From: a virus
Length of the DNA stretch: 64,000 nt
Virus record (IMG/VR): IMGVR_UViG_3300050343_000147
Location: 1 to 64,000 of that record
Direction: 5' to 3' (one strand)
The notes under the pieces were generated by a model. It was not told the DNA's origin. It searched no databases and saw only the letters and a list, made by a program, of their open reading frames with translations. The position numbers were made by a program, and so were the translations under genes. Positions 4,338 to 64,000 of this stretch are shown one piece after another. The stretch's first letter is position 1; each line of letters opens with the position of its first letter.

Positions 4338-4340
4338 TAT

Positions 4341-4376
4341 AAAAAAAGGGGGCTATTTTCATAGCTCCCTTTCTTG
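4341..4376. terminator. Bidirectional rho-independent terminator between convergent operons
   Basis: A 9-bp stem (GGGGGCTAT / ATAGCTCCC with one G-U pair) closes a TTTC loop. It is followed on the + strand by TTTCTTG and preceded by a run of seven A, which becomes a T tract on the - strand. It sits between the nrdA stop and the 3' end of the leftward late region, so it can end both. Confidence 0.8.
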
Positions 4377-4417
4377 TTACAGGAATGTTTGGGTATGGTG
4401 CCCATTTTATTATTCCT

Positions 4418-4747
4418 TTACTGTGTGGCAATCATTATTAGCTCAGCTCGAGCATAATAACTTCCACTTTTCTTTGCCCAATCCATAGCATTATAGCCTT
4501 CATCGCACATATCTACATAAGGCTGTGCTCCTCTTAAACATAATAAGTAAACAATATTAGCTTTATCCGCTATAATAGCATGGATTAGCAATGGTTTACC
4601 ATCAATCATTTCAGTCGCATGGATTCGATTTACTATCAACATTGAATTTACTTTGTTGTAATTTCCTTCATTAATAGCATTTAACAGTTCTGTTTCAATA
4701 TCGTTTGACATATTGAAAAATAACAAGAAAGATAAAATTAAGTTCAT
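4418..4747 (-). CDS. Ankyrin-repeat protein
   Basis: A 109-residue protein and the last gene of the leftward late region. It contains one clear ankyrin repeat (DGKPLLIHAI, then NIVYLLCLRGAQP) and a partial second (DEGYNAMDWAKKSG). The first 12 residues (MNLILSFLLFF) are hydrophobic and could be a secretion or membrane signal; a second possible start is M13 (MSNDIETELL), which would give a cytoplasmic protein. Ankyrin repeats bind proteins, so a host-protein target is plausible but not shown. Its neighbours are secreted-type proteins. Confidence 0.7.
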   Translation of the reverse strand: MNLILSFLLFFNMSNDIETELLNAINEGNYNKVNSMLIVNRIHATEMIDGKPLLIHAIIADKANIVYLLCLRGAQPYVDMCDEGYNAMDWAKKSGSYYARAELIMIATQ

Positions 4748-22941: not shown

Positions 22942-23706
22942 TTATTGTAACTTTTTCTTAATTGTTTTAAAAACTTCAACACCTTCATCAGTTTTAAACC
23001 AAGCGGCTAACGCTGAATAAGGGTTTTCATCAAAAGGTATAGTCATTAGTTTTCTATCATTAGATCCCCAATGGAACGTTCTTTGATCTTGAGCTAATTT
23101 TATTATATGTTGCTCAGTAGCTCTTATACCTATATTTCTTAAACCTACGTTCTCATCACTTGCTACAGATAAAAATGCTGATGGATTTCTTCTTGCCATA
23201 AGTAGTAAATCTCTTCTTAGCTCTTTAGAACTTAATGTAGAGACTTTAGACCCTAGTTCAACTCTTAACACAGCTTCAGCGTGATCTATATCCATTTCTT
23301 TTGCTGCAATCATTGCATCTAGTTCTACATTAATATCTTCAAGTTCATCTTCAGCAACTACCTCAGCTTCCCATTCAGAATATATAATACCTTTTTTAGG
23401 GTGATATAGTGATAATAGTTTTTGTAAGTTTTGTTTTTGTTTTGGAACAGCTAAAACACCATCTTCAAATATAATGTGCCCTAGCGTTACCTCTCCTTTT
23501 TGTTCTTGTAAAAAAGGTGAGTTCTGATTCGTAGCATATCTTAATTCTTTTTGTTCCCCTGTTTTTTCATCAAACCATAGTAATGGATGTCTTCCAGTGT
23601 TTTTAGAATTTAAAGTATATGTTAACGGTTCTTTATCGTGTAATAGAAAATATCTTCTATCTTTAATCTCCCATTTAGGGGCTATTGTTTCTTTTGTTTT
23701 TGACAT
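22942..23706 (-). CDS. Hypothetical structural-module protein
   Basis: The 254-residue protein is directly downstream of the major capsid gene. It has a beta-rich N-terminus (RRYFLLHDKEPLTYTLNSK), a central acidic helix (EWEAEVVAEDELEDINVELD) and a C-terminal helical part. It has A/T leader and no signal sequence. Its conserved place after the capsid protein suggests a head-associated role; no domain is recognised. Confidence 0.6.
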   Translation of the reverse strand: MSKTKETIAPKWEIKDRRYFLLHDKEPLTYTLNSKNTGRHPLLWFDEKTGEQKELRYATNQNSPFLQEQKGEVTLGHIIFEDGVLAVPKQKQNLQKLLSLYHPKKGIIYSEWEAEVVAEDELEDINVELDAMIAAKEMDIDHAEAVLRVELGSKVSTLSSKELRRDLLLMARRNPSAFLSVASDENVGLRNIGIRATEQHIIKLAQDQRTFHWGSNDRKLMTIPFDENPYSALAAWFKTDEGVEVFKTIKKKLQ

Positions 23707-23727
23707 GATATAATATAATATAATTAA

Positions 23728-25270: not shown

Positions 25271-26429
25271 TTAGTTAAATTTTCTTGTTTTAATCTTCAG
25301 TTTTGAAGAATCAAGACCGCTTATAGCTTTAACTTTTAATCCACCAACAAATACGTCTCCGGTAGGCGCTGGCCTAACATCTTCGGATATGTTTTTAGAC
25401 TTAGCAACAAGATCTTTAGTAGCATCGGATTTACCTTGCTCATAAAAATGTTGTGCTATTTTGTCAACGTTTTCAGCGGCATACATAGCTTTGTGATAAC
25501 CTTTAACATCTTTACATTACCTTTATCATCTAAGAACTTCTTAATTGTGTTTGTAATATTCGATTGTTTAGTTGCAACTTCACTAGGATTTTTAACACCG
25601 TATCTAAATTTTTTTCACCAACACTGAAATCAAAACCTTTGAAATCATTAGTAAAATAATCTTTAGTATTAGATTTAAAATCCTCATGTTGTTGTTGAGC
25701 TGTGTTTTGCTCTTCATTATAGCGATTGAAAAAGTCCATAGCTTTTTGTTGGTCTTGTGTCGTACCAGGTCTCAACTTGATTTCCTCGTAATATTGACTT
25801 TTTAAACCATCTAAATGCTTTCGGGCTTTAGCAACCTCTTCTTTATACGCAAGTTTCTTTTTACGAATCTCACGCTCCTCGTCCACTTCTTCATCAAATG
25901 AAAAATTATCTTCAATCATAAAGTTAATTTCGCTTGAATCTAAGTGTGATTTGGCTTGTTTGTAATACTCTCTTAATAAAGTATCATTATCTACATTAGT
26001 ATAGTCAGCATTTAATCTAACATAATCTTCTAATGTTCCACCTGTTTCTTTCATAAAGTCTACGACTTTTTCGATGTTTTCAGGTAATTTAGCTACCTCT
26101 CTTGCCTCTTCAGGTGTAGGAGCAATAACTTTTTCTTCAATCTTTTCACCTAGTTGTACTATTTCTTCTTCAACAACTTCTTCAATAGGTTTTACTTCTT
26201 CTTCTTTAATTTCAGAAACTGGGCTGGGCTCTGGTACTTGTTCGTCCACTTTAGGGCTATCTCCGGTTTGTTCTTCCACAACCACCTTCTTTGTTTCTCC
26301 GACTTGAATGGCATCTGTTTCTTCTGTTTTAGGTTTTGATAAATCGACTTTAATAATATCGTCTTTTACCAATTGTTTAGGCTTCTTTTTTATTTTAAAA
26401 GAGCCTTCTTCTTTTACTTGTTCTGACAT
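25271..26429 (-). CDS. Scaffold/head-assembly protein, two frameshifts
   Basis: Two pieces join into about 385 residues: the N-terminal Glu/Lys/Val-rich region (start 26429) and the C-terminal MYAAENVDKIAQHFYEQGKS piece ending at 25271. The frame shifts at a run of seven T (25612-25618) and again near 25510. The bridging sequence VKNPSEVATKQSNITNTIKK is in another frame. Very acidic, low-complexity, coiled-coil rich and just upstream of the capsid gene: this is the usual scaffold profile. Confidence 0.7.
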
Positions 26430-26458
26430 AATATAATATAATAAAAATTAATAAAAGT

Positions 26459-26689
26459 TTATTGCGGTGTAAACTGCTCTAAACCAAATCCGCCTAAGTT
26501 ATCATTACCAGCTGATTCAAAATCTGTAGGTAATAAATCATTTTGACGTTGTTCAATCATTTTTGATTGTTGTGTTGCTTGTATTTTAGTTCTTTTATCT
26601 TTACGATCTTCTATAAATTGTTCTTTTTGTTTGTCTCTACCAATTTGAGCTTGAGCTAGTTGCAAACTGTATTCAAACTCTTGAGCCAT
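26459..26689 (-). CDS. Small Gln-rich protein between portal and scaffold
   Basis: This 76-residue protein (AQEFEYSLQLAQAQIGRDKQ, ending GGFGLEQFTPQ) is helical, charged and Gln-rich. It starts 15 bp after the portal stop. It may be a head-assembly helper or a continuation of the portal's Gln-rich tail. The frame itself is intact. No family is recognised. Confidence 0.55.
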   Translation of the reverse strand: MAQEFEYSLQLAQAQIGRDKQKEQFIEDRKDKRTKIQATQQSKMIEQRQNDLLPTDFESAGNDNLGGFGLEQFTPQ

Positions 26690-26703
26690 TAATTGTTTTT
26701 TAA

Positions 26704-28865
26704 TTAAGCTTCTGTTTGCATTCTTTGTATTTCAAACTGAGACTTAGCTTGTTCAATTTGTATTTCTGTTTGAGCTAAAGCTTCTTGTTTTTGAACTTCA
26801 TCCATAGCAGCTTGCTTCAGAGGCTTTTGCATTTGCTTGAGCTTGAGCTTCAATCATTTGCTTGTTGTTGAGCTTGATCTTTTTTTTTTCTGTTTTCTTT
26901 TGTATTTTAATATTTGATTAGCTAGCTTTAGATTTTTAATTTGTCTAATATCTATAGCATCTTCTAAATATATTTGACCGTTGATTGTAAAGCTATTTGT
27001 ATGTTTTGCTCTAACATAGCTTTTTCTTCTTCATCAGGTTCTAAGTTCTAAATAAATACCAAAATCATGTAAATTTAATTAGATATTTCTTCTAAATTTT
27101 ACATTGTAAAGTAGATATACTTTCATTAAAGCGTTTGCTTAGTTAAAGGGAAATCTAAAGCATCTGCTATTTTTAAAGATATGTTTTCACAATTCTTAAG
27201 AGTTAAATATAAACTAGCTTGTATTAATATGTTTAGTTGCTATATTAGATGCGTTAGCAGCCATTTTTTGTAACCTACTAAAGCGTTCTTTATCTGGTAT
27301 ACTACCATCTCTAGCTTCATTTAATCCGGTTACATCTCGTATCATTTGTAAATAATATTGATAAGTTGTATTAAGACTTTGTATTTTACCTTGACCAGCT
27401 TGATGCTGTTAATTCTTGAATAGGTACTTTACCTCTATTTAAGGATCACCATCTTGTGTAAGTGATCTACCAACAATACTACCAGTTTGGAAATACATAT
27501 TTAATGCTTCTGCTGGATTATAATTTGTTCCATTACCTAAATCAACTTCTGCTAAACCATCCATATCTAAAATACACCATCTGGTACCATTCTAGACAAT
27601 AACTTGTTGTAGTTTTAAATGATGTTAATTGAATCATATCAGCAAAACCAGTTACATTTACTAACTAAAGATTCTATACGACCTTTATACATTCTAGGTG
27701 CACATATAGCATAATTCATTTTAACTTTAGTTAGTATCTGCTATTAGGTCTTGTCATGTTTTCAGCAAGCTCCCACTTTAACATATTAACACCTAAAACT
27801 TTAGCACCGCTGTATAAACTTCTATAGACTTCTTGAAACTCTATCAAAGTTATCATTTTCTGGTGGATTAAATGTATCAGGTTTTTCTAATGCTTTTTCT
27901 AAACCTTGATCTGTTTTTTTATTTTAAATACTTGATTATATATGTTTTATATTCAAAATATAATACTTGAACAGTGTTTTCATCATAATTACCCCAACCA
28001 GTTATATACCATCTGTTACCAGGCATTTTTTGTATTTTTCTAATTCTTCTTGTAAGATATGGAAATTCTTTTTTAAGTTCAGGTAAAGTTATAGATTTTA
28101 CTTCACCAACATAATATATATCTTCAAAGTTAGGATCTTCTGTATATGAATAAACTAAATAAGCAGGATCAACATAATCAATTGTAACTCCTTCAGATTT
28201 ATTAAAATTTGTTTTACACAGCACCAATACCTATTGTAACTATATCATATTAATTCTTTTTTAGTTAATTCATATTTATTTTGAGCTAATACATTATTGA
28301 TATAGCTTCTTCTTCAGCTATTTCAACAGATTGCTTATAACTTAATTGCATGTGTAATTCTAACTCTTCTTTGTTTCTGGTAGTTATCTTTAGGATTTGT
28401 ATTGATATAAATCAATACCTAATGTTTGTTTTTTTGTTCTAAATATTTCTTTAGCAACATATCTCTCATATATAGCTTGAAGCATAATCTGTTCTTTTTT
28501 TAATAGAAAATGGATCTTGAGCGTAAGCTTTTATATCATAATTTTTTTGATATACCATTTACAACTATATCTACAAACTTAGATATAATAGGTACTGGTT
28601 TCCAGTCTAAATTTAAATAAGACAAATCACCATTAATAGATAATTCATCTTTATATTTTTGTACAGGTTGTTCACCTCTAGCGTATAATCTTAAACTATG
28701 AAATTGATTCCAATTAGTTAAATATCTATTACCGTTAGTTCTACCCTTGTCAAACCATTCATATTCAATAGCTTGAGCAACTTGCAAACCATATTCTAAA
28801 GAAGCTTTTTCAGCGTCACTTACTACTTGACTAGGAAAAGCACTATTGTGTTAGTATATATATCT
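26704..28865 (-). CDS. Portal protein, many frameshifts (start approximate)
   Basis: Fragments in three frames read as one portal protein of about 720 residues. The N-terminal part has FPSQVVSDAEKASLEYGLQV, then LRLYARGEQPVQKYKDEL, then INGDLSYLNLDWKPVPII and KFVDIVVNGI, a pattern I know from portals of marine/crAss-type phages. The middle (27919-28227) has VDPAYLVYSYTEDPNFED. The C-terminus is a Gln/Ala coiled coil (QTEIQIEQAKSQFEIQRMQ). I count a frame change roughly every 100-200 bp. The true start is hidden by an indel near 28865. Confidence 0.75.
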
Positions 28866-28921
28866 ATTTAATTATTATTTTTGATGTGTACCTTTGTTGT
28901 TATATTTTTTAATTACCTAAA

Positions 28922-31066
28922 TTATAACTTTTCTTTGAATTTAGCAACTGGGTCTATATTTATTTTTATTGCAAGCCATTAATAGCTAAACCAGAACTAA
29001 TAGAAGCATCATGTTTTGTTCTATTGTTTATATTAAATTTAGCCCAATCTTCTAATGTTCTTTGAAAATACATATCACCATATTGCCTGTTTCTTTTAAA
29101 CCTACAAAATCTTCTATATAAGTTTCAATAGCAGCAGCGTGAGCTTGTTTTATATCTTCACTTGAATTAGGTATTCCACCTATTTCTCTTTCTGTTACAG
29201 ATAATTTATTGCATTTTTTATCTGGTCTGTTCATAGAATAACCTCTATAACCTCTTCTTTTAAAATGATATAATAATCTAGGTTTGTTATTTTCTGCTAA
29301 GTATTGGCATACCATAAAATACACAAGCCATAAGTACATCTTCAAAAAATATTTCAGCAGTTTGTGGTCTAGCTATATATTCTAAAAAAAAATGATTAGG
29401 TGGACGTCTTCCATACTAAACTTAGTTAAACCATGTAAAGAACCATTAGAACCTCTACCATCTACAGTACCTGATATATCATAACTATCACAACCAAAAG
29501 CACCCATATGTTCATTACCAGGATATTTTAATACCATTTTTTATTATAACTCTATTTTGTAAGATTTAATAGGTGGAACCCAAGAAATTAAAAATCTACC
29601 TTTTTATTTGGTACAAAAATACTTGTATCTTTAACACCATTTTCCCATTGAAAATTACCTTGAGTTATTATTGAGTTTTTAAATCTTCATTGTAATCTAT
29701 TTGTTCATATATTTTAGTTAAGATTAAATAAAGATTGTTTAGTTTCATCTCTAAACGCGTGTTTAGTTGTACTTGGAAACTGTCTATAAAATTCATTTAA
29801 ACCATCTTGATCTTCCTTTAAGACCTTCTACTTCATTTTCCCAGTATTCTATTACACCTATTTTAATTGGGTCTCCGTGAGGTCCTTCAACTTTTTTTTT
29901 GGTGTGTTCGAAGACAGGTAAGCCATAAGAATCAATGTATCCTTCGTAGTTCCATTCCATAGGTATGAACAAAGAATATAGTCCCGAGCGAGTCTGTCCA
30001 TTGGCGTTTCTTTTTGTAACGTCTGAGTCATCATATAATTTTTTAAAATTTCTACCACCTTTATCTAAAGCGTTTGATGTTGATCCCATCATACACTTAC
30101 CTATAATTCTACTACCTAATCGTAAACAAGTTTTTGTAACACTCCAGTTGTTTAATATATTGTCAGGTCTTTCCCACTTACCTGATTCATCGTGTACTAG
30201 TAGTTTTAGTTTTTCACCATCATAAGAGTTGTCTCCTGTATTTTTCCAGTCGATAGTTGTATCTAGACCTGTAATTTCTTCTAGCTTTTCGTTGCTATCA
30301 AGTTTTCTTCTTGTGAATTTGAGCTGGAACTCTGTATGCAAGTTCGGTTTTGGCCTGTCCATACCGTCTTGAATTGGCTTGAAAAAGAACGGGTAGTTAA
30401 CGGATATTGGTACAACTTTATCGGTAAACATTTTCTTAGCATCAGGACCAGATTTTGATAATACACCAAATCTGCATCTGTTGATATTGTAGCAAGGTTA
30501 ACTGTTTCGCCTGATGCCATAAATGAAAAACCAGATCGTCTGTTTTTAAGATAGCACATTCCGTAACATCTTGTATCTGCTTTGCAAGCTTCCCAGAATA
30601 TAAAGAATAATCTGTTTGCTTCCCTAAAGTCTGGCTTGCCCAACATCAATCTTGGACCACTGCAAGTACATATAATGAGTACCAGTAATATAAGTAGCTT
30701 TACCTTTATTATAAACCAAAACCTTCTCTTCTAGCCTTTAAATTCTTCTATCAATATAATCATACCATTTTTCTTTAAAATCATCTGGATATTCTTTCCA
30801 GTCAAATATTGATTTTATTTTTTTTAATTCTTTTAGGATATTCGTGTGTTTGTCCATTTTCAAACTTATGAACATTCGTTTTCTTTTGGTAATGCTATTT
30901 TAAGATTTTGTATTTCATAAACCTCACCTATCTCACCAGTTTTAGATATAACAACAACATCATGTTCTTTGTTATAACCATACTCCCATTTTTTAGATTT
31001 GTTTATTCTTTTATAAGTTTTAGGTTAATATGGATTTAATACTTTATATAAAGTTTGCTCGTACAT
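28922..31066 (-). CDS. terL: Terminase large subunit, many frameshifts
   Basis: The joined reading gives about 715 residues. The N-terminus (ATG 31066, overlapping the previous stop as TAATG) reads WEYGYNKEHDVVVISKTGEI. The ATPase has a deviant Walker A around YLKNRRSGFSF and Walker B LLVHDESGKWE, then the coupling-type GSTSNALDKGG. The nuclease domain begins GAFGCDSYDISGTVDG and continues FFLEYIARPQTAEIFFEDVL and YRGYSMNRPDKK. This is the packaging motor. Frame changes occur at least eight times and mostly in A/T runs. The stop at 28922 is the best end in frame. Confidence 0.82.
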
Positions 31067-31338
31067 TACTTAGATCTTCCTTCTGCAAAACCTCCAAAAG
31101 CTTTTTTCTTTTTTCTTCTTTAGGTTTTTCATTTAACATATCTTCTTCTTCTTGTATTCTATTAAGTATTTCAAAAGCATCAAATATAGCTAGCTTTTTT
31201 GTAGCAGCAGCGTTTTTAATCTATCAGCTGATATATCATCATCAGAATCTACAATAGCTTCTTTAGCTACTTTAATTAATTCCTCAACTGCTATGTGCCC
31301 AGCTTGGATTATATTCTTCTTCGTTTCCTTGACGTTCA
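31066..31338 (-). CDS. Small protein preceding TerL, candidate small terminase subunit, frameshifted
   Basis: About 90 residues: AGHIAVEELIKVAKEAIVDS, then DRLK(N)AAATKKLAIFDAFEIL, an acidic coiled coil, and a basic end GRSK. It is directly upstream of terL with a TAATG junction and overlaps the end of the GroES-like gene. One-base corrections are needed near 31212 and 31105. Position and helical content suit a small terminase, but there is no sequence hallmark of TerS, so the call is tentative. Confidence 0.45.
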
Positions 31339-31884
31339 TACTTAATTACAATATCATTTGATTTCATACAATATAGACGCTTTGCCATCAACAATAAACT
31401 CATATTCACCGTTAGGTGTATAACCTACAAGGTCTCCCTCGTTGATTCCTAGCGCTTCTAACGAGCTATTACCATATTTTAATATACCAATAAGACTTTG
31501 CTCTTTATCAACGTTAGTATTGTCATTACTTTTATAGGTTTTATAAAACATCTATTGCCAATAGCTTTCCATTTATCCTTTATTTTTATATAAATACATT
31601 TGATCTATTTGAACAAAAATATAAACCATCTTTAAAATAAGATCTACTTTTTTTTCTTCACCTTTCATATATAAAAGTTCTAAAAACATTATGATGTATA
31701 ATTATTAAATCACCTTTTTTAATATCAGTTTTAAAGCTAAAGGTGTTTCTATAACTTTAGCTAATTATTTACAAATTTAAAACTTTCTATTTTAGTGTTT
31801 AATTATAAGGCTTTTGTCACCTACTTTTATTTCATTATGTATATCTCCTAAAGGCTCAACGATAAAGTCATATAAACTTTTCAT
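31284..31884 (-). CDS. Two-domain GroES-like co-chaperonin, frameshifted
   Basis: Start 31884 (MKSLYDFIVEPLGDIHNEIK). Joined frames give about 198 residues with two GroES-type barrels in tandem. The first has AKVIETPLA then DIKKGDLIIIHHN. The second has AIGNRCFIKPIK, LIGILKYGNSSLEALGINEG, DLVGYTPNGEYEF and a tail IVIKYERQGNEEEYNPSW. That tail is familiar from marine-phage genes called GroES/gp31-like. It would cap GroEL during capsid folding. Several single-base indels interrupt it. The annotation rests on pattern recognition of the repeated GD-x-(I/V) barrels. Confidence 0.6.
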
Positions 31885-32153
31885 TAATATTCTAAATCAT
31901 ACTCAACTGATATTGCCATGTTAGAATTAAACTTTTTCCATGGCAATACCTCGTTGTTTTTTTTGATGTAAATATTATAAGAATTATCTTCTTTATCAAA
32001 AGTATATGTGATATTGTATGACCACCATATACTTGTTGCCCTAACGAGTAATGCATAGCATCATTTTTATAGTCAGAACCAATACTTATCTTTCTAATTA
32101 AAGTCTTTTTGAAAGCCTTGGATTTTTTCTAATTGGTCTTTTTTAATTTCCAT
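31884..32153 (-). CDS. Hypothetical protein upstream of the GroES-like gene, frameshifted
   Basis: Start 32153 (MEIKKDQLEKIQGFQKD); after one shift it continues IRKISIGSDYKNDAMHYSLG, QQVYGGH, HILFDKEDNSYNIYIKK and NSNMAISVEYDLEY, about 89 residues. Its stop overlaps the next start as TAATG. The sequence is clearly coding because the same beta-strand pattern is kept across the shift. Function unknown. Confidence 0.55.
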
Positions 32154-32169
32154 TTTTAATTTAATTTAA

Positions 32170-32622
32170 TTATTTGCCTATTGATTTAAATTTCTCTGCA
32201 CCACGTGAACCGAAATAGGCAACATAAACGGTTATAAGTAGTGATTTTAAAAGGTCTATCCAACCGGTATCTATACCAAATGATATATCAAACCCGTCTA
32301 ATAGAATAAAAATTACAAGTGATATTGTTAAGAATATCAATGTCATTGGCCTAGTGTTTTTTGAGAGCCATGAATCCGATTTCATATCGCTTTCCCAGCG
32401 TTTAGATACCTCTTGTAATTCTATAGTGTCTTGCTCTAGTAATTTAAGAGCTGTTTCTTTGTCTTGTGGTGGTAAGTCTGGATCTTTGTCTATAAGATTT
32501 TTAACCATACCTAGCGCGCCTTGATCAGGCAGTATATCTCCTATCACATTTATAATACCTGATTTACCTAGTAGAAATTTTCCTACCTTAGTATCTTTAA
32601 ATTTCTTTTTTGGTTGTGACAT
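32170..32622 (-). CDS. Holin-like membrane protein
   Basis: About 150 residues from the preferred start at 32622 (MSQPKKKFKDTKVGKFLLGK); an upstream in-frame ATG at 32730 would read through the preceding gene. After a charged helical region come WLSKNTRPMTLIFLTISLVI and a second hydrophobic stretch (WIDLLKSLLITVYVAYFG), ending in a basic tail. WLSKN(T)RP before the membrane helices is typical of the 3-TM holin family in marine and GTA-like phages. It lies 1 bp after a zinc-peptidase gene; the M15 endolysin is 2 kb upstream. Confidence 0.68.
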   Translation of the reverse strand: MSQPKKKFKDTKVGKFLLGKSGIINVIGDILPDQGALGMVKNLIDKDPDLPPQDKETALKLLEQDTIELQEVSKRWESDMKSDSWLSKNTRPMTLIFLTISLVIFILLDGFDISFGIDTGWIDLLKSLLITVYVAYFGSRGAEKFKSIGK

Positions 32623-58048: not shown

Positions 58049-58314
58049 AGTTTTTTTTATTTATATTCTGTCTACGCTGTAAACATGTGAATTTATGTGA
58101 TTTCTCTAACGGACTTTTGGTAAAGCGCGCTATGATAGATAATATCACAGGTTTTTAACAAGGTTTACTAGTAGTATATAGAGAGTATTTGAATAGTGTG
58201 ACAATAGCCTGTTACTATACTACCTTAATAGCCTTATGTCACTGTTTTCATTCTGAAAAAGTGTTGGTTATATAGAATTATGGTGTTACCCCTATCCCTC
58301 TGGTTATCAACGTG

Positions 58315-58372
58315 TTACACAAAACGGTTTTCAAATGACGGCCCGGCCCCACTTTTTTTCACAATTGTGTAA
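58315..58372. repeat. 8-bp inverted repeat flanking a GC-rich core
   Basis: TTACACAA at 58315-58322 and TTGTGTAA at 58365-58372 are exact reverse complements around a 42-bp loop. The loop contains GGCCCGGCCCC followed by T7. The right arm is itself part of the palindrome CACAATTGTG (58360-58369). It could be an operator, origin element or stem-loop. Confidence 0.55.
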
Positions 58373-58443
58373 ATGTTTTACCTTTTTTGTTCAATATCGT
58401 GTACATGTTTACATATTCACTACAACTACTAACTATTTACTAT

Positions 58444-58482
58444 TACAAACTAAATACGAGTCTACTTGGATAATATAGATGT
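58444..58482 (+). promoter_or_regulatory. Bipartite element copy 1
   Basis: ACAAACTAAATACGA, spacer gtctactt, GGATAAT, then ATAG and ATG immediately followed by TAA. It lies in the intergenic control region, not at the end of any gene, so the element exists independently of coding sequence. The next gene starts 76 bp later. Confidence 0.75.
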
Positions 58483-58557
58483 AAGTAATTAATTAATACT
58501 AGTTACTTCACAAGAATGAGTGTGGGAGTAAGATAATTAACACTATAAAAATATACT

Positions 58558-58683
58558 ATGAATAAATTAATACAAGAATTAAAAATAAAGTTTCCATACA
58601 ATGAAACAATGTGTAAAGATAAGTACAATGAGACTATACTAGATTATCTATATGAAGAAATTGTAGTAGAACTTACAAACTAA
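58558..58683 (+). CDS. Small acidic hypothetical protein
   Basis: A 41-residue protein, MNKLIQELKIKFPYNETMCK then NETILDYLYEEIVVELTN. Its ATG has the A/T leader AAAATATACT and its stop TAA is supplied by the second copy of the bipartite element (ACAAACTAA). First early gene. No family. Confidence 0.5.
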   Translation: MNKLIQELKIKFPYNETMCKDKYNETILDYLYEEIVVELTN

Positions 58684-58712
58684 ATACGACACAAACTGGA
58701 TAATATAAATGT
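58673..58712 (+). promoter_or_regulatory. Bipartite element copy 2
   Basis: ACAAACTAAATACGA, spacer cacaaact, GGATAAT, ATAA, then ATGTAA. Overlaps the end of the 41-residue gene and precedes the 75-residue gene with a 40-bp A/T leader of AATA repeats. Confidence 0.75.
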
Positions 58713-58748
58713 AAAACAACTAATAAATAATAAATAAATAAATATAAT

Positions 58749-58976
58749 ATGAGTAATTTAAAATCAAAAAGATTTGTCATCAGACAGTCACTAATCGGAA
58801 AAAATGTAACAATAGAATTTACAAACAAGAAAGGTATTACATACACTTACAATCATGACATAGCGTTCAACATTATGAAAAGTAAGTTACAAAGTATGAA
58901 TTGCTTTCAAAAATACAAGTCTTACACTGCAACAAATAATATTCCAGTTGCACTAAGAAATGTAGAGTTAGTATAA
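58749..58976 (+). CDS. Small basic hypothetical protein
   Basis: The 75-residue protein has beta-hairpin-like N-terminal half (KRFVIRQSLIGKNVTIEFTN) and helix AFNIMKSKLQSM. Lys-rich. Leader is AAATAAATAAATATAAT. Downstream is a tRNA-like element. Function unknown. Confidence 0.55.
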   Translation: MSNLKSKRFVIRQSLIGKNVTIEFTNKKGITYTYNHDIAFNIMKSKLQSMNCFQKYKSYTATNNIPVALRNVELV

Positions 58977-59033
58977 TAATCTAACAAGTGTGCGTTCAGT
59001 ATTTTCTACACTATAAACACAGTTGAATACTTA

Positions 59034-59074
59034 TGACATAATGGTTTATGTGAGTTCGATTCTCACCATGTCAA
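59034..59074 (+). ncRNA. tRNA-like minihelix (acceptor + T-arm only)
   Basis: A standard T-arm GTGAG-TTCGATT-CTCAC (59050-59066) is followed by C and ATGTCA, which pairs with TGACAT at 59034-59039. Only AATGGTTTAT separates the 5' strand from the T-arm, so D and anticodon arms are absent. It is either a deleted tRNA or a tRNA-mimic used as an RNA-processing signal. Confidence 0.4.
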
Positions 59075-59093
59075 CTAATCTTAAAAATAATAT

Positions 59094-59186
59094 ATGACTA
59101 ATTTACAAAAATTCAATGTACTAATTGTACTTACACTAATCATCGTTTTAACTAACGTAATTAATAACGGCGGATTTTTACTATGA
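59094..59186 (+). CDS. Thirty-residue transmembrane microprotein
   Basis: MTNLQKFNVLIVLTLIIVLT then NVINNGGFLL: one membrane helix and almost nothing else. The leader AAAATAATAT precedes ATG, and its stop overlaps the next start (ATGA), suggesting translational coupling. Too short for homology-based assignment. Confidence 0.5.
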   Translation: MTNLQKFNVLIVLTLIIVLTNVINNGGFLL

Positions 59187-59341
59187 TTGCTGTAATGGAT
59201 AACTACGATTTCACTTGGGCTATACTTGCTCAAATGAAAGATGAACTAACAAGAGAAGATGTGTTAGGCATACTAGAAACTCACAAAAATTGTTTCACTG
59301 ATGCAACTAACTACAAACTAAACACGATCACTAATGGATAA
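59183..59341 (+). CDS. Small protein with repeat-derived C-terminal tail
   Basis: A 52-residue protein, MIAVMDNYDFTWAILAQMKD, helical middle (DELTREDVLGILETHKNCFT), ending NYKLNTITNG. The last 10 residues are encoded by bipartite element copy 3 and recur in three other proteins. ATGA overlap with the upstream microprotein. Confidence 0.55.
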   Translation: MIAVMDNYDFTWAILAQMKDELTREDVLGILETHKNCFTDATNYKLNTITNG

Positions 59342-59351
59342 TAATAATATG
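59311..59351 (+). promoter_or_regulatory. Bipartite element copy 3
   Basis: ACAAACTAAACACGA (one T-to-C change), spacer tcactaat, GGATAAT, AATAAT, then ATG of the next gene at 59349. The upstream gene stops at the TAA inside GGATAA. Confidence 0.75.
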
Positions 59352-59570
59352 AATAAACAATATATAGACTATCCCGCTTCAGAAATCAAAGCAAAGTTAC
59401 AACAATGTCTTGACTATGAAGCAAAATACGGTGAAATACCACAAGTAACTGCTGTCAAAAAATGGTGTCAAAGCTATGAGTATCGCAAGAATGAGTGGCA
59501 ATGGCGACAAAATGTAGCTAAATCAATTAACTTTAATACTAACTACACTAAACCTTATTACAATGGATAA
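59349..59570 (+). CDS. Small hypothetical protein
   Basis: A 73-residue protein from the ATG placed as in the other element-driven genes (an upstream ATG at 59334 lies inside the element). Helical, aromatic-rich (VKKWCQSYEYRKNEWQWRQN). Its end NYTKPYYNG looks like a degenerate version of the NYKLNT...NG tail, so an eroded element copy may lie at 59545-59570. Confidence 0.55.
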   Translation: MNKQYIDYPASEIKAKLQQCLDYEAKYGEIPQVTAVKKWCQSYEYRKNEWQWRQNVAKSINFNTNYTKPYYNG

Positions 59571-59671
59571 AACAAAAGAATTAGTTGTTCGAAGAAAAAT
59601 TTGGTGAAGGATCACTAGAGTTTGCAATAGAACAAGGTTTTGACAAAGAAGAATTACTAAACAATATATAA
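59563..59671 (+). CDS. Small acidic protein, one frameshift
   Basis: ATG 59563 overlaps the preceding end (ATGGATAA). MDKTKELVV is followed after a one-base shift near 59590 by EEKFGEGSLEFAIEQGFDKE and ELLNNI, stop at 59671, 1 bp before the next start. About 35 residues. The shift may be a sequence error. Confidence 0.4.
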
Positions 59672-59672
59672 T

Positions 59673-60092
59673 ATGGCATATCAAACATGGAAACTCGAAC
59701 AAGAATCGCTTGAAAATGCGTACGCTAGACGACTACTAGTCGAGTATAATATCAAAGAAGTCACAACACAGCGTCAAGCTAAGAATGGTACAAGAGAGTT
59801 TGAATTTCCTGTACCATCAAGAAAAAGATGGCCAAATGGTAACAGACTAAGACTAGCGGTGTATAAATCTGGTTATGTAAGAAACTGTAACAGTTGCTCA
59901 TCTAACTATCAACTAAATCCAGTTTACAAATCAGAGAGTAGACAAATGTTTCTAACTGACGAAGGTATACTTAAAACATATATCTATAATGGTTACACTA
60001 GAACTAAAATCTGGAATACTATGGCAAGAATGAAATTTATGCTTGACTTCTATATCAGAAATTACAAACTAAATACGAATAATAACGGATAA
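59673..60092 (+). CDS. Hypothetical basic protein with NYKLNT-type tail
   Basis: The 139-residue protein is basic and beta-rich (REFEFPVPSRKRWPNGNRLR), has a CNSCSSN Cys pair near residue 72, and ends RNYKLNTNNNG, encoded by element copy 4. Leader AATATATAAT. No known family; the composition would suit nucleic-acid binding. Confidence 0.6.
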   Translation: MAYQTWKLEQESLENAYARRLLVEYNIKEVTTQRQAKNGTREFEFPVPSRKRWPNGNRLRLAVYKSGYVRNCNSCSSNYQLNPVYKSESRQMFLTDEGILKTYIYNGYTRTKIWNTMARMKFMLDFYIRNYKLNTNNNG

Positions 60093-60104
60093 TATAAGTA
60101 TATG
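60062..60104 (+). promoter_or_regulatory. Bipartite element copy 4
   Basis: ACAAACTAAATACGA, spacer ataataac, GGATAAT, ATAAGTAT, then ATG 60102. The TAA in GGATAA ends the 139-residue gene. Confidence 0.75.
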
Positions 60105-60248
60105 AAACAAATTAAATTCAATCAAGAAACAGGTAATGTACTGTTAGAAACAGACAAAGGTTACCAAGTGCTTACTCCACTACATCAAAACATAGAGTAC
60201 ACAGACTACACATCGTTTTATCGCATAAATAATAGAATATATGTGTAA
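60102..60248 (+). CDS. Small hypothetical protein
   Basis: A 48-residue protein, MKQIKFNQETGNVLLETDKG with YTDYTSFYRINNRIYV, a small beta-rich fold. Starts right after element copy 4 and its end overlaps the next gene by 8 bp. Confidence 0.5.
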   Translation: MKQIKFNQETGNVLLETDKGYQVLTPLHQNIEYTDYTSFYRINNRIYV

Positions 60249-60489
60249 GAATATGCGTGAGTTACTAGAATACTCTAAAAATAGCAGACGTAAACGTGCA
60301 TTTCAGCACTACGAACTCAACAAAGTGCATGGTGAATGCAGTGGTTTGACTGATCGCGAATGGAATAATGTAAAAACACGCGGTAAAACATCGTATACTC
60401 AATCAAGTAAGTACACAATGCACAAAATGTGGCGTGATAATACACAGAAATACGACTTAAAACAATTAAAAATAATAAATAAAGCATGA
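60241..60489 (+). CDS. Small basic hypothetical protein
   Basis: The 82-residue protein is Lys/Arg-rich helical (ELLEYSKNSRRKRAFQHYEL), with TDREWNNVKTRGKTSYTQSS. Start may instead be M5 (60253). Its stop TGA overlaps the next start as ATGA. The composition suggests nucleic-acid binding; no family. Confidence 0.55.
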   Translation: MCKNMRELLEYSKNSRRKRAFQHYELNKVHGECSGLTDREWNNVKTRGKTSYTQSSKYTMHKMWRDNTQKYDLKQLKIINKA

Positions 60490-60686
60490 GTAAAATGAAA
60501 ATTATAGATGAAATAGCAGACGCACAAGTGTCTCACATCAAAGAAACACTGTATGAAGCAACAAATTGGGCAATGGATGGTGTTATGGAGTTTGAAGGAC
60601 TTGATAGCGACGATTATAACCATGTTCACAATGCTATAATGGTAGCAGTAATAGAAAAATTACATACAGGATTAGATGAAAACTAG
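60486..60686 (+). CDS. Small acidic helical protein
   Basis: The 66-residue protein (KIIDEIADAQVSHIKETLYE, MVAVIEKLHTGLDEN) is predominantly alpha-helical and acidic. ATGA overlap at the start and 11-bp overlap at the end link it to both neighbours in one translational unit. Confidence 0.55.
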   Translation: MSKMKIIDEIADAQVSHIKETLYEATNWAMDGVMEFEGLDSDDYNHVHNAIMVAVIEKLHTGLDEN

Positions 60687-60804
60687 AAAACTAAGACATA
60701 AGCACATTAAACTACTTAAAATAACTAAGTATGAAGCGGAAAGATTAGAAGTAGAATACTACAGACGGTTTAATTACAAACTAAATACGATTGTAAACGG
60801 ATAA
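60676..60804 (+). CDS. Small basic protein with NYKLNT-type tail
   Basis: A 42-residue protein, MKTRKLRHKHIKLLKITKYE then RLEVEYYRRF and tail NYKLNTIVNG. The tail comes from element copy 5. Highly basic N-terminus. Confidence 0.5.
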   Translation: MKTRKLRHKHIKLLKITKYEAERLEVEYYRRFNYKLNTIVNG

Positions 60805-60814
60805 TATAAATATG
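60774..60814 (+). promoter_or_regulatory. Bipartite element copy 5
   Basis: ACAAACTAAATACGA, spacer ttgtaaac, GGATAAT, ATAAAT, then ATG 60812 of the zinc-ribbon protein. The GGATAA TAA ends the upstream gene. Confidence 0.78.
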
Positions 60815-61000
60815 AGATGTAAATGTAATAACAAAATACCGGCAGGCAGAATAGCATTAGGTTATTCAAACTGTGTAAACTGTAGTTCAACAAAGCAATA
60901 TAGCTATGTACCTATTATTGCTAACAAACAAGTTCTAGAAATACAAATAGTAAGTCAAGAACTAAGTGATCAAGTACACAAAGCTTGGCGCAGGAAATAA
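60812..61000 (+). CDS. Small zinc-ribbon protein (DksA/TraR-type finger pattern)
   Basis: The 62-residue protein contains C-K-C in the first five residues and CVNC 18 residues later (SNCVNCSSTKQ), with IPAGRIALGY between. This four-Cys arrangement around (I/R)xxAR/RxxLGY is the small zinc finger of TraR/DksA-type proteins common in phages. Probably regulatory through RNA polymerase or DNA; not proven. Confidence 0.6.
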   Translation: MRCKCNNKIPAGRIALGYSNCVNCSSTKQYSYVPIIANKQVLEIQIVSQELSDQVHKAWRRK

Positions 61001-61039
61001 GGGAGTGATATGGTAAGTGAGACAGTATCTTAGCCGATT

Positions 61040-61090
61040 GTGGCAAGACAGTAACCCAAAGGTCGGCGGTTCGATTCCTTCCCACGCCAC
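61040..61090 (+). ncRNA. Second tRNA-like minihelix
   Basis: AAAGGTC then GGCGG-TTCGATT-CCTTC resembles the variable loop and T-arm of a Met-type tRNA, with one T-stem mismatch. GTGGC (61040-61044) pairs perfectly with GCCAC (61086-61090) around it. No D-arm or proper anticodon arm is found, and no 5' strand complementary to a 7-bp acceptor exists upstream. Degenerate tRNA or RNA-processing mimic. Confidence 0.32.
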
Positions 61091-61109
61091 TAACATTAAA
61101 TAATTAAAT

Positions 61110-61337
61110 ATGGCAAATATGAGTTATTGCAGGTTTGAAAATACTGCAAGAGATTTAGAAGACTGTGTTATTGCTCTTCAAAACAATGACTTAAATGAGT
61201 ACATGAGTGTTCATGAGGTTAATGGTTTAGCTGAACTACAACTGTTAGCGATGGATATTGTAGCAATGCAAGATCACATCGGTGATATAATAGAAAAAGA
61301 AAAACAAAGATTTGAAGCACACGAATTTACAAACTAA
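61110..61337 (+). CDS. Conserved small phage protein (NMSYCRFENT family)
   Basis: The 75-residue N-terminus ANMSYCRFENTARDLEDCVI is a recurring start in uncharacterised marine-phage proteins. The rest is helical and acidic. Its leader ATTAAATAATTAAAT follows the second tRNA-like element, and its stop TAA is the one in element copy 6 (tail EFTN). Confidence 0.65.
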   Translation: MANMSYCRFENTARDLEDCVIALQNNDLNEYMSVHEVNGLAELQLLAMDIVAMQDHIGDIIEKEKQRFEAHEFTN

Positions 61338-61367
61338 ATACGAATTAATACGGATAATATAAATATG
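61327..61367 (+). promoter_or_regulatory. Bipartite element copy 6
   Basis: ACAAACTAAATACGA, spacer attaatac, GGATAAT, ATAAAT, then ATG 61365. Upstream gene ends at the first TAA (ACAAACTAA). Confidence 0.78.
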
Positions 61368-61598
61368 AAGATCAAAACAATTTATGACAGACTAAAACCA
61401 GGTTTCAAGTCGTCACTGCAAAAAAACGCTAGAAAATATTCTAGTGCTAAAAGGCTTAAGTACACTCTTATGTCTCAAACGTCATGGTATGACTTAACGG
61501 TTAGTCAAGTATCTGATATATCAGTTTACTGTGACATACCAACTTACAAATTGTCTGCTCAAGACTTAATGTATGGTAACTCTATAATCAATAAATAA
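61365..61598 (+). CDS. Small basic hypothetical protein
   Basis: The 77-residue protein (KIKTIYDRLKPGFKSSLQKN, KRLKYTLMSQTSWYDLTVSQ) has a helical pattern that could form a helix-turn-helix (LTVSQVSDISVYCDI), but the match is weak. It ends 1 bp before the next gene. Confidence 0.5.
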   Translation: MKIKTIYDRLKPGFKSSLQKNARKYSSAKRLKYTLMSQTSWYDLTVSQVSDISVYCDIPTYKLSAQDLMYGNSIINK

Positions 61599-61599
61599 T

Positions 61600-61854
61600 A
61601 TGACTACAAGAGTAAAAAACTTAGCACATGACAAAGCATTCGCTAATGTATACAGTCTAGACACTGACATTAGCAGGCTAAAGCAAGAAATAAAAGATGA
61701 TAATACGCCTTTTATAACAATAGACCAACTAGAAGGTGTATTGAGACACACAAAACAACAACGTGAAGTGTGGGATTATATAGCAAAATTAATAGAAATA
61801 GATCACGAAAGAATAGATTACTTAGATTATGAAAAACAAAACAACATTACCTAA
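61600..61854 (+). CDS. Small coiled-coil hypothetical protein
   Basis: The 84-residue protein (DTDISRLKQEIKDDNTPFIT, LIEIDHERIDYLDYEKQ) is charged and helical. Its 3' end overlaps the next gene by 26 bp. No family. Confidence 0.5.
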   Translation: MTTRVKNLAHDKAFANVYSLDTDISRLKQEIKDDNTPFITIDQLEGVLRHTKQQREVWDYIAKLIEIDHERIDYLDYEKQNNIT

Positions 61855-62059
61855 ATGGTTCGACGGTACGATATACGACAAAGGCGAAACAGTGACAAAC
61901 CCTTTTTCAGGCGACACTTACGAACTAAACAACTTAGAATTAAGTATGTATGACTTAATTATGGGTTCTCAAATGGTACAAAAGTACGATTTAACAAGAA
62001 AAGGCTTAGATTGGTTTAGAAAAGCTAATCCTAAAGCTTACCAAGTGCTATTAGATTAG
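61829..62059 (+). CDS. Conserved phage protein (LPKWFDG...GETVTNPFSG family)
   Basis: The 76-residue protein TLPKWFDGTIYDKGETVTNP with SMYDLIMGSQM is a well-spread small protein of cyanophages and other marine phages with no known function. The tRNA-Gln gene begins 5 bp after its stop. Confidence 0.7.
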   Translation: MKNKTTLPKWFDGTIYDKGETVTNPFSGDTYELNNLELSMYDLIMGSQMVQKYDLTRKGLDWFRKANPKAYQVLLD

Positions 62060-62064
62060 CATAA

Positions 62065-62137
62065 TGACTCGTGGTGTAATTGGCAACACGTCTGGTTTTG
62101 GTCCAGAAGAGTCCAGGTTCGAGCCCTGGCGAGTCAA
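62065..62137 (+). tRNA. tRNA-Gln (UUG anticodon)
   Basis: A complete 73-nt cloverleaf: acceptor TGACTCG/CGAGTCA, D-stem GTGT/ACAC, anticodon stem TCTGG/CCAGA with loop TTTTGGT (anticodon TTG), variable AGAGT, T-stem CCAGG/CCTGG with TTCGAGC, discriminator A. The CCA is not encoded (ACT follows). It decodes CAA, the Gln codon favoured in this AT-rich genome. Confidence 0.95.
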
Positions 62138-62158
62138 CTAACATTAAATAATAATAAT

Positions 62159-62320
62159 ATGAGTAGATTTAAAAGTAAACTTACACCTCATTTCAAGGTG
62201 AGTTTAGCTAAGTCAGTGATTAGAGTCATGGGCTTTAGCATCCTATTGTCATCATTGCCAATAGGTGTAGCAGTATTAATAATCGCTGAAATAGTCAGCA
62301 TAGGTGAAGAGTTAGTATAA
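62159..62320 (+). CDS. Small membrane protein
   Basis: A 53-residue protein with N-terminal basic helix (SRFKSKLTPHFKVSLAKSVI) then a hydrophobic segment (VMGFSILLSSLPIGVAVLII) long enough for one or a hairpin of membrane helices, and an acidic end. Its stop overlaps the next start as TAATG. Leader ATTAAATAATAATAAT is shared with the gene after the other tRNA-like element. Confidence 0.55.
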   Translation: MSRFKSKLTPHFKVSLAKSVIRVMGFSILLSSLPIGVAVLIIAEIVSIGEELV

Positions 62321-62826
62321 TGAGTACAAGAAATATGACACTAGTGATCGATAGATCACACGCAGAAGATCATGAAGCAGGCTTTGCACTTAAACCTCAA
62401 TTGGTAAGTGATAAAGCTTATGTTCACATGTATATGCATCACGACGGTTACCCTGAGTGGAGAGGCGTAGAGCTTGCTAACTGGATTCAACACATGCAAG
62501 ACTACAGAGGTTTTACTAACTTCGGTGATGGTTCAAGAATAGCATCACATTTAGTACACGACTTTCACTACAATAGTCAATACTTATATCCTAACGTTGA
62601 TTCGTGTGACCATGAATATACGTGGATTATATGGACAGGTAAACCTGATGTATGGTTAAGTGCTTATAATCAGTACACTAACAGATGTGAATTTGTTGGC
62701 ACACCTGATAAACTTATAAATAAATATAAGCAGAAAAACATGGGCTATACTAACTGGACTGAAAAGTTTTTAGTAGACAGTCATGCAGAAGAAAATTACA
62801 AACTAAATACGAAACACAATGGATAA
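62320..62826 (+). CDS. Conserved phage hypothetical protein (STR...HHDGYPE family)
   Basis: The 168-residue protein has MSTRNMTLVIDRSHAEDHEA with VHMYMHHDGYPEWRGVELAN, a pattern common to uncharacterised phage proteins in which a (H/Y)HxDGYPE motif follows a beta-strand. Possible metal site from the His/Asp cluster. Ends EENYKLNTKHNG, the repeat-derived tail from element copy 7. Confidence 0.65.
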   Translation: MSTRNMTLVIDRSHAEDHEAGFALKPQLVSDKAYVHMYMHHDGYPEWRGVELANWIQHMQDYRGFTNFGDGSRIASHLVHDFHYNSQYLYPNVDSCDHEYTWIIWTGKPDVWLSAYNQYTNRCEFVGTPDKLINKYKQKNMGYTNWTEKFLVDSHAEENYKLNTKHNG

Positions 62827-62836
62827 TAATAGTATG
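62797..62836 (+). promoter_or_regulatory. Bipartite element copy 7
   Basis: ACAAACTAAATACGA, spacer aacacaat, GGATAAT, AATAGT, then ATG 62834. The upstream gene stops in GGATAA. Confidence 0.75.
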
Positions 62837-62947
62837 TTCAAACAAACCGAAGATCCAATCAAAGTAAAATCTCATCTTGACGGTGAGTCTTACACATTAA
62901 AACAATTGTTAGTACGTATTGAAGACTTAGAAGAACAAACAGTCTGA
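62834..62947 (+). CDS. Small acidic hypothetical protein
   Basis: A 37-residue protein, MFKQTEDPIKVKSHLDGESY then TLKQLLVRIEDLEEQTV, ending in a short coiled-coil helix. Starts 7 bp after the GGATAAT box of copy 7. No family. Confidence 0.45.
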   Translation: MFKQTEDPIKVKSHLDGESYTLKQLLVRIEDLEEQTV

Positions 62948-62989: not shown

Positions 62990-63259
62990 ATGACAGAAAA
63001 AGAATACGAAAAGCTACTAGATAGAATTAAATTCGATCTATATCAAGAGTTTATTAACCCTGACACTGCTACATATGGTATTAAATATGTAGACGAAGAG
63101 ATAACTCCTGAGTCATTAACTGACAGAGAAATATTGCAAGACGAATTAGGTAGGCTTTGTCTTATACAAAATAAGTATGTAGACGATGAAGAATACAGAA
63201 AAGCTGCAATAATACAAAATAAAATAACTAAAATTCAAAATAAAATAGATAAATTATGA
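62990..63259 (+). CDS. Small protein with UVR-like helical hairpin
   Basis: The 89-residue C-terminal half (DDEEYRKAAIIQNKITKIQN) resembles the UVR motif of UvrB/UvrC (a helix-turn-helix hairpin with EyerAaxxrdxI). Its stop overlaps the DNA ligase start as ATGA, which suggests a DNA-repair or ligase-associated role. The match is short, so tentative. Confidence 0.5.
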   Translation: MTEKEYEKLLDRIKFDLYQEFINPDTATYGIKYVDEEITPESLTDREILQDELGRLCLIQNKYVDDEEYRKAAIIQNKITKIQNKIDKL

Positions 63260-64000
63260 TTAAACCAATGCTCGCATACAAAGTAGACAAAAAACCTGTC
63301 GACTGGTCCGAGAAAGTATACATTCAACCTAAGCTTGACGGCGTAAGGTGTGTTATATACGTCGACGACAAAGAAAACATCAGATGTTTCTCACGTACAG
63401 GTAAAGAATTTCACAATCTTGAACACATTAAACTATCGTTAAACAAATTTTTCTTTGACTATGCTAATGTAGATGTTGTACTCGACGGTGAACTATACAA
63501 CCATGATCTTAAAGATGACTTCGAAAAGATTATATCATTAGTTAGAAAACAAAAACCAACTGATGCTGATAAAGCTGAAGCTGAAAGGCTAATACAGTTT
63601 CATTGCTATGACTATATAGAAACAGTTATGGACAAGCCTTACAGTTACAGATCTGATCAACTAGCTTGTTCTGATATGTATAACTACTGTATTAAATACG
63701 TAGAAACTACTCTAGTTAATTCTAAAGAGTCTGCAAAGTTAAGACATCAGTATAATCTAAATAACGGCTACGAAGGCTCTATATTGCGTCTAGACAAACC
63801 TTATCAGCAAAAACGATCTTACAACTTACAAAAGTTTAAAGACTTTAATGACACCGAAGCTACAATTGTAGGTTACGAAATCGGCAAAGGTAAACGTGAA
63901 GGTACTCTTGGCAAGTTTCTAATGCAAGATGATGATGGCATAGAGTTTGGTTGTCCTCCAGGTAAAGGCTACAACTACAAAGATCTAGCTAATATACTTA
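63256..64000 (+). CDS. ATP-dependent DNA ligase, 3'-truncated by window edge
   Basis: 248 codons are in view. Motif I QPKLDGVR has the adenylated Lys26; then FSRTGKEF (RxG), motif IIIa/III DGELYNHDL and FHCYDYIE, motif IV GYEGSILRLD, motif V SYNLQKFKDF, and the start of the OB domain (ATIVGYEIGKGKREGTLGKF). All nucleotidyl-transferase motifs are intact. The gene seals nicks during replication and recombination. Start at 63256 overlaps the previous stop. Confidence 0.92.
   Translation, partial: MIKPMLAYKVDKKPVDWSEKVYIQPKLDGVRCVIYVDDKENIRCFSRTGKEFHNLEHIKLSLNKFFFDYANVDVVLDGELYNHDLKDDFEKIISLVRKQKPTDADKAEAERLIQFHCYDYIETVMDKPYSYRSDQLACSDMYNYCIKYVETTLVNSKESAKLRHQYNLNNGYEGSILRLDKPYQQKRSYNLQKFKDFNDTEATIVGYEIGKGKREGTLGKFLMQDDDGIEFGCPPGKGYNYKDLANIL

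Follow-up and report, generated by a model that had tools for sequence, protein, structure and literature searches.

What kind of signal recurs seven times, always in the same orientation, at the head of a phage gene arm, and what might read it? The question is raised by IMG/VR virus record IMGVR_UViG_3300050343_000147, of which we analyzed positions 1 to 64,000 (the window, 64,000 nucleotides), and by a bipartite element within it, ACAAACTAAATACGA-N8-GGATAAT. Allowing up to three mismatches, a pattern scan of the window found exactly seven matches, all on the + strand, all with an 8-base spacer and all confined to the opening 4.4 kb of the + arm (chance expectation 0, from 100 shuffles); the remainder of the 71,494-base record that holds the window contains no further copies. 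Across the seven copies the 15-mer carries one mismatch in total (T to C, in copy 3), and the conserved block extends past the two half-sites, with a T preceding ACAAAC and an A following GGATAAT in 7/7. The copy number, fixed spacing and single mismatch reported in a preliminary description of the locus are thus reproduced, with the first base at 58445 rather than 58444. The element very probably represents a new family of phage-specific promoters and, given that it is a promoter, a phage sigma factor working on the host core polymerase is likely to read it. The explanation as a whole, a sigma-type promoter array on an early arm with the phage sigma as likeliest reader, is one we favor with reasonable though limited confidence. 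We found no description of the motif, or of like phage promoters, in the open-access papers searched.

Transcription is predicted to begin at the seventh base after GATAAT (see below), and the copies differ in how far this base lies from a gene. Copy 1 (58445..58474; ACAAACTAAATACGA-GTCTACTT-GGATAAT) is the first signal of the + arm, inside the divergent intergenic region, and has its predicted start at G 58481, with a long leader to the open reading frame (ORF) at 58558. Copy 2 (58675..58704; spacer CACAAACT) has its predicted start at G 58711 and a 38-nt leader to the ORF at 58749. In copy 3 (59313..59342; ACAAACTAAACACGA, spacer TCACTAAT), copy 5 (60776..60805; spacer TTGTAAAC), copy 6 (61329..61358; spacer ATTAATAC) and copy 7 (62798..62827; spacer AACACAAT), the predicted start is the ATG itself (59349, 60812, 61365 and 62834, respectively), and the transcripts would be leaderless; in copy 4 (60064..60093; spacer ATAATAAC) the predicted start is A 60100 and the ATG is at 60102. 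Six of the seven copies had been described as lying at gene starts. This is so for copies 3 to 7 (5/7), but in copies 1 and 2 the ATG found 11-12 bases past GGA runs immediately into a stop codon (ATGTAA); the ORFs that follow begin at 58558 and 58749. The final codons of the preceding ORF run into several of the copies: four times these are read in one frame (...YKLNTxxxG-stop), twice in another (...TN-stop). Because the reading frame of the overlapped ends differs among copies, what is conserved is the nucleotides and not a peptide, and a C-terminal peptide tag (YKLNTxxxG) was ruled out.

The element is not confined to this record. An exact scan found it in at least 118 IMG/VR stretches, and 32 related whole records hold 3-12 copies each, on one strand per genome (backwards control, 0). 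The search of related contigs proposed in the preliminary description therefore places the copies at meaningful positions on a single strand, and not scattered at random. With up to three mismatches, 456 sites have a gap of 8, as against 0-4 for gaps of 5, 6, 7, 9 and 10; the 97 sites with a gap of 11 are attributed to self-overlap, since GATAATAAT also matches itself at a shift of three bases. In extended form, the consensus reads wT-ACAAACTAAATACGA-n7-[TCA]-[GA]-GATAATA. The 15-mer drifts coherently per phage lineage while GATAAT and the spacing stay constant, as in the versions CGAATTATAATACGA-N8-AGATAAT (L233) and ATAAGGTTGACACGA-N8-TGATAAT (L254, nine copies). Two lineages, L233 and L245, have a common altered 15-mer type, CGAAnnnTAATACGA, and are without the helix-turn-helix (HTH) gene that otherwise tends to precede the sigma gene.

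The bases downstream of GATAAT carry the signature of a transcription start. Start-site statistics were taken over 690 collapsed sites, of which 143 (including 4/7 window copies) have ATG exactly at the seventh base after GATAAT and the other 547 do not. At these 547 non-ATG sites, the seventh base is a purine in 529 (97%; background 67%) and a G in 292 (53%; background 5%, and ~2% on either neighboring base), and in 74% a T or C precedes it. Of the 18 exceptions to the start purine, several have one base fewer after GATAAT, and the purine is found at 62/63 sites in genomes whose 15-mer departs from the consensus. Placed at the canonical distance, this pyrimidine/purine step is our predicted mark of the transcription start, independent of the ATG. 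Within GATAAT, A-11 and T-7 are conserved at >99%, as a sigma70-family -10 box requires, and the upstream box that such promoters have near -35, with 17-bp spacing, has its counterpart in the 15-mer, spanning -36 to -22 at a distance invariant in 450+ sites. Strand, position in relatives and the start purine over the 690 sites all speak for the phage-specific promoter family that had been suggested. An ATG less than 6 bases from GATAAT is nearly absent, save for 8/404 sites with ATG directly after it; one of these, in L091, aligns with a site in its relative L109 where the distance is 6, and is a genuine, unexplained case. A separate feature of the start region is GTAA at +1, seen in 170/547 sites. 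Long-leader promoters very often have G-TAA, the start region reading ATGTAA, and such start-stop examples occur in relatives (L006, L023, L055 and others) and in window copies 1 and 2.

We infer from these patterns that the element is transcribed and read by sigma, and in what order the events of infection would run. Numbered from +1, TTACAAACTAAATACGA would occupy -38 to -22 and the 8-base spacer -21 to -14; -13 would be G or A here, and GATAAT would be the -10 box, at -12 to -7. Transcription would begin at the purine seven bases past the last T of GATAAT. About one fifth of the copies would start on the ATG itself and give leaderless mRNAs, the others having short, A/T-rich leaders. The array would drive the small early genes that head the + arm, and its likeliest reader would be host core RNA polymerase with a phage sigma70-family factor. 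Such an arrangement points to a promoter code of the phages' own, carried along to take over the host RNA polymerase.

The candidate reader, a phage sigma70-family factor, is encoded beyond the window (65743-66503 of the record, frame broken) and in 499 IMG/VR contigs. An alignment of ten intact versions spans 250 residues. They match sigma regions 2, 3 (RIPEH) and 4; they hit phrog_351 (E 5e-19 to 4e-20) and SigA chains (E 1e-10). The predicted fold matches SigA/RpoD, in a model of modest quality (pLDDT 73) with low whole-length TM-scores. The gene lies 1-9 kb downstream of the elements, on the same strand, and keeps constant company with them. With up to four mismatches, the element occurs at 46/48 sigma loci having at least 8 kb upstream; the other two, and several weak ones as well, show coherent element versions peculiar to them, with identical geometry in the two. 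Around 80 sigma loci we counted 328 forward and 9 reverse sites, almost all of which lie 5' of the sigma gene. Looked at from the other side, 35/39 element-bearing records contain the sigma. Of the four that do not (G002, G005, G011 and G032), two were checked: the G032 sequence stops within the ligase gene, a little short of the sigma region, and that of G002 ends among early genes. Among the element-bearing phages examined, all with sufficient sequence encode the sigma a few kilobases downstream. Element and sigma are both absent from the cultured phages phi38:1, elemoA and Panino and from the metagenomic ctfjg026. In L222 and L260, the element stands directly before the sigma gene, an arrangement that would form a positive loop. 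One relative (G010:C1) has two sigma matches, at 3695-4444 and 64909-65658 (E 7e-102 and 8e-99), either because the gene is duplicated or because the contig ends overlap.

The residues of the sigma that should face the -10 box are also altered. E. coli sigma70 reads -12 through Q437 and T440; in an alignment with SigA, their counterparts in the phage sigma are G and R, which would fit G rather than T at -12. We favor the phage sigma as reader on three grounds: it constantly accompanies the element, the -10 box is sigma70-like, and these -12-reading residues are changed.

Several observations pull the other way. The sigma gene comes after the promoters it is proposed to serve, and a search for host sigmaA-type promoters that could make the first sigma turned up none above chance; the + strand of 58049..58444 lacks any exact match to the sigmaA type (TTG-N17-23-TAnnTTTG). 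Should the sigma be a product of the very arm it serves, its first supply would come from leaky host transcription, a packaged protein or an unrecognized host promoter. The sigma might also serve late genes instead. At the 8/404 sites with ATG right after GGATAAT, transcription begun seven bases further on would leave out the ATG, and the p-values for the start base count related sites as independent. Finally, 15-mer divergence does not follow sigma divergence (r = 0.09, 60 genomes), and genomes with quite different 15-mers have almost the same region-4 recognition helix; reading of the 15-mer may therefore need more than the sigma. Host polymerase might instead use a separate phage activator on the 15-mer, like T4 MotA, leaving the sigma for late genes or for the -10 box only, an alternative we regard as a minority possibility. 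It would suit a 15-mer that is long, near-invariant per genome and drifts by lineage independently of sigma sequence, and a candidate is a 206-aa HTH protein whose gene immediately precedes that of the sigma in most genomes; the two HTH-less lineages have the altered 15-mer type. Yet those two lineages retain the promoter geometry, divergence of the HTH protein tracks the 15-mer weakly (r = 0.15), and its fold gave no significant match. When protein divergence was compared with the 15-mer by Mantel and mutual-information tracking, the top non-trivial correlation (r = 0.42) was with a thymidylate-synthase-type-like enzyme and probably reflects phylogeny. Slightly less probable again is a two-part code per lineage, in which the conserved sigma would read GATAAT and a second factor the fast-drifting 15-mer, with a few host genes placed under the code and firing only upon infection.

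Readers other than a phage sigma or activator fare worse. An alternative host sigma factor, exploited by the phage from the first minute, would solve the puzzle of timing, and a perfect copy does lie upstream of a gene in a few flavobacterial chromosomes; we nevertheless think it improbable, given that among 400 Flavobacteriaceae genomes an exact copy occurs in two (G044, G045) and single weak matches with 2 mismatches in three others, and that the 15-mer varies by phage lineage. The known flavobacterial promoter classes (sigmaA TAnnTTTG, SM5 TAnnTTGY, ECF CGT box and sigma54) are also unlike the element (PMC9723704). A general host regulon was ruled out by the scan of the 400 genomes. We give very little credence to a promoter for a single-subunit or virion RNA polymerase of the T7, N4 or crAss type. 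Although AAATACGA resembles a portion of the T7 promoter, and such promoters are typically information-rich and of fixed length, PF00940 is unmatched in the phage's own record and 32 relatives (E ≤ 1; T7 and N4 positive controls were detected), the giant virion protein lacks a D.D.D motif, the spacer is variable where the T7 specificity region sits, and the start signature lies seven bases past GATAAT and not at GG. A T7-like start at the GG of GGATAAT, whose best support is the 8 ATG-adjacent sites, was set aside since the purine signature is elsewhere. The preliminary description had allowed for either a promoter/operator or an RNA element, and the start purine argues for a promoter. An element acting in RNA, whether to enhance translation, to mark a site of processing or to bind protein in the leader, would explain why copies lie near start codons, and the leader composition favors Shine-Dalgarno-free translation; but the distance to the start codon ranges from 0 to over 50 bases, the 15-mer is often inside the coding end of the preceding gene, and the start signature would be left unexplained. 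Because the copies fold no better than shuffles (7/7, z 0.3 to 1.6) and have no Rfam match, we prefer the promoter and consider the RNA reading extremely unlikely.

(Near-)perfect copies also occur on flavobacterial contigs of chromosome size, 195 kb to 1.4 Mb (L135/L139, at 1500-1530; L136/L142; L145; L137/L141), upstream of a TerB-like gene and a small secreted-protein gene, with one near an excisionase-like gene. The genes behind them may belong to the host or to a satellite and be switched on by phage infection. At 4700-4790 of L133, a contig of a flavobacterial metagenome-assembled genome, a tRNA-Asp is followed by a perfect element, and the contig ends 41 bases after the tRNA-Asp; this could be an assembly junction via a tRNA common to host and phage.

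The record itself belongs to a flavobacterial-type podovirus, whose capsid-region protein is 38-50% identical to those of Panino, ctfjg026, elemo and phi38:1-type phages; a crAss-type phage was ruled out, the relatives being the phi38:1, elemo and Panino phages. Virion genes lie on the - strand, and a divergent intergenic region (58049..58444) separates this late arm from the early + arm, which runs from 58.4 kb. The + arm opens with small genes of no assigned function, those the seven elements would serve (58558..62947, +), with a tRNA-Gln (62065-62138) within the block. It continues (62990..64000, +) with an 89-aa ORF and, at 63256, a gene read as DNA ligase and, beyond the window, with the HTH protein (65111-65756 of the record, frame broken), the sigma factor and recombination and primase-like genes; the ligase, recombination and primase names come from sequence reading and from cluster-mates in annotated phages. 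Portal- and terminase-like genes (window 26600-32200) and the sigma and HTH genes (record 65111-66503) are split over frames. The latter two are intact in relatives, and the breaks in all of these genes are probably sequencing error in the contig, not biology. On the late strand, the one find of a search for late promoters was an A/T-rich leader, AATTATATTATATTATG (up to two mismatches), directly before late structural genes (window 22942-23725 and 25530-26443, and in relatives). It was present in 11/11 element-bearing genomes examined and 0/4 relatives without the element, and is a possible late signal.

As 499 contigs encode the sigma that accompanies the element, the phage group concerned is large. 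If the proposal is true, it would give a readable map of transcription starts for hundreds of uncultured marine phage genomes, predict leaderless early mRNAs, and supply a natural series of diverging sigma/promoter pairs in which to study the evolution of promoter recognition. TACGA-N8-NGATAATA can serve as a sequence tag for the clade and for the direction of its early arm.

How does this array compare with known systems? T4 middle promoters consist of a MotA box and a -10 box, and the likeness is clear: an upstream box and a TATAAT-like -10 at fixed distance, before pre-replicative phage genes. Here, however, no MotA/AsiA homologue was identified, and a full phage sigma is present. With T7-type promoters the element shares a long, near-invariant sequence repeated on one strand before phage genes, and AATACGA, by chance or convergence; it differs in its variable spacer, its start position and the lack of a single-subunit polymerase gene. 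Flavobacterial sigmaA promoters belong to the same host group and also have a -10-region box at fixed distance from the start, but here GATAAT (consensus GATAATAW) replaces TAnnTTTG at -12 to -5, and there is no TTG at -33 (PMC9723704). The closest likeness is to podovirus 7-11, whose late promoters (bipartite consensus GTAAtg-16-aCTA, start 6-9 bp from the promoter element) are read by the phage sigma SaPh711_gp47, and to the comparable gp36 promoters of phiEco32; relatives of these phages with a diverged sigma have a different consensus (PMC8948821). These, too, are podoviruses with divergent arms and a phage-encoded sigma70-family factor, whose use of the core polymerase is shown there and predicted here. 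What would be new in the present, sequence-predicted promoters relative to the 7-11/phiEco32 scheme is their unrelated sequence, their long upstream box (15-17 bp) and their location: where 7-11 and phiEco32 promoters drive middle and late genes, almost no copies here lie on the late strand, and the array would instead serve those genes of the early arm that precede the sigma gene.

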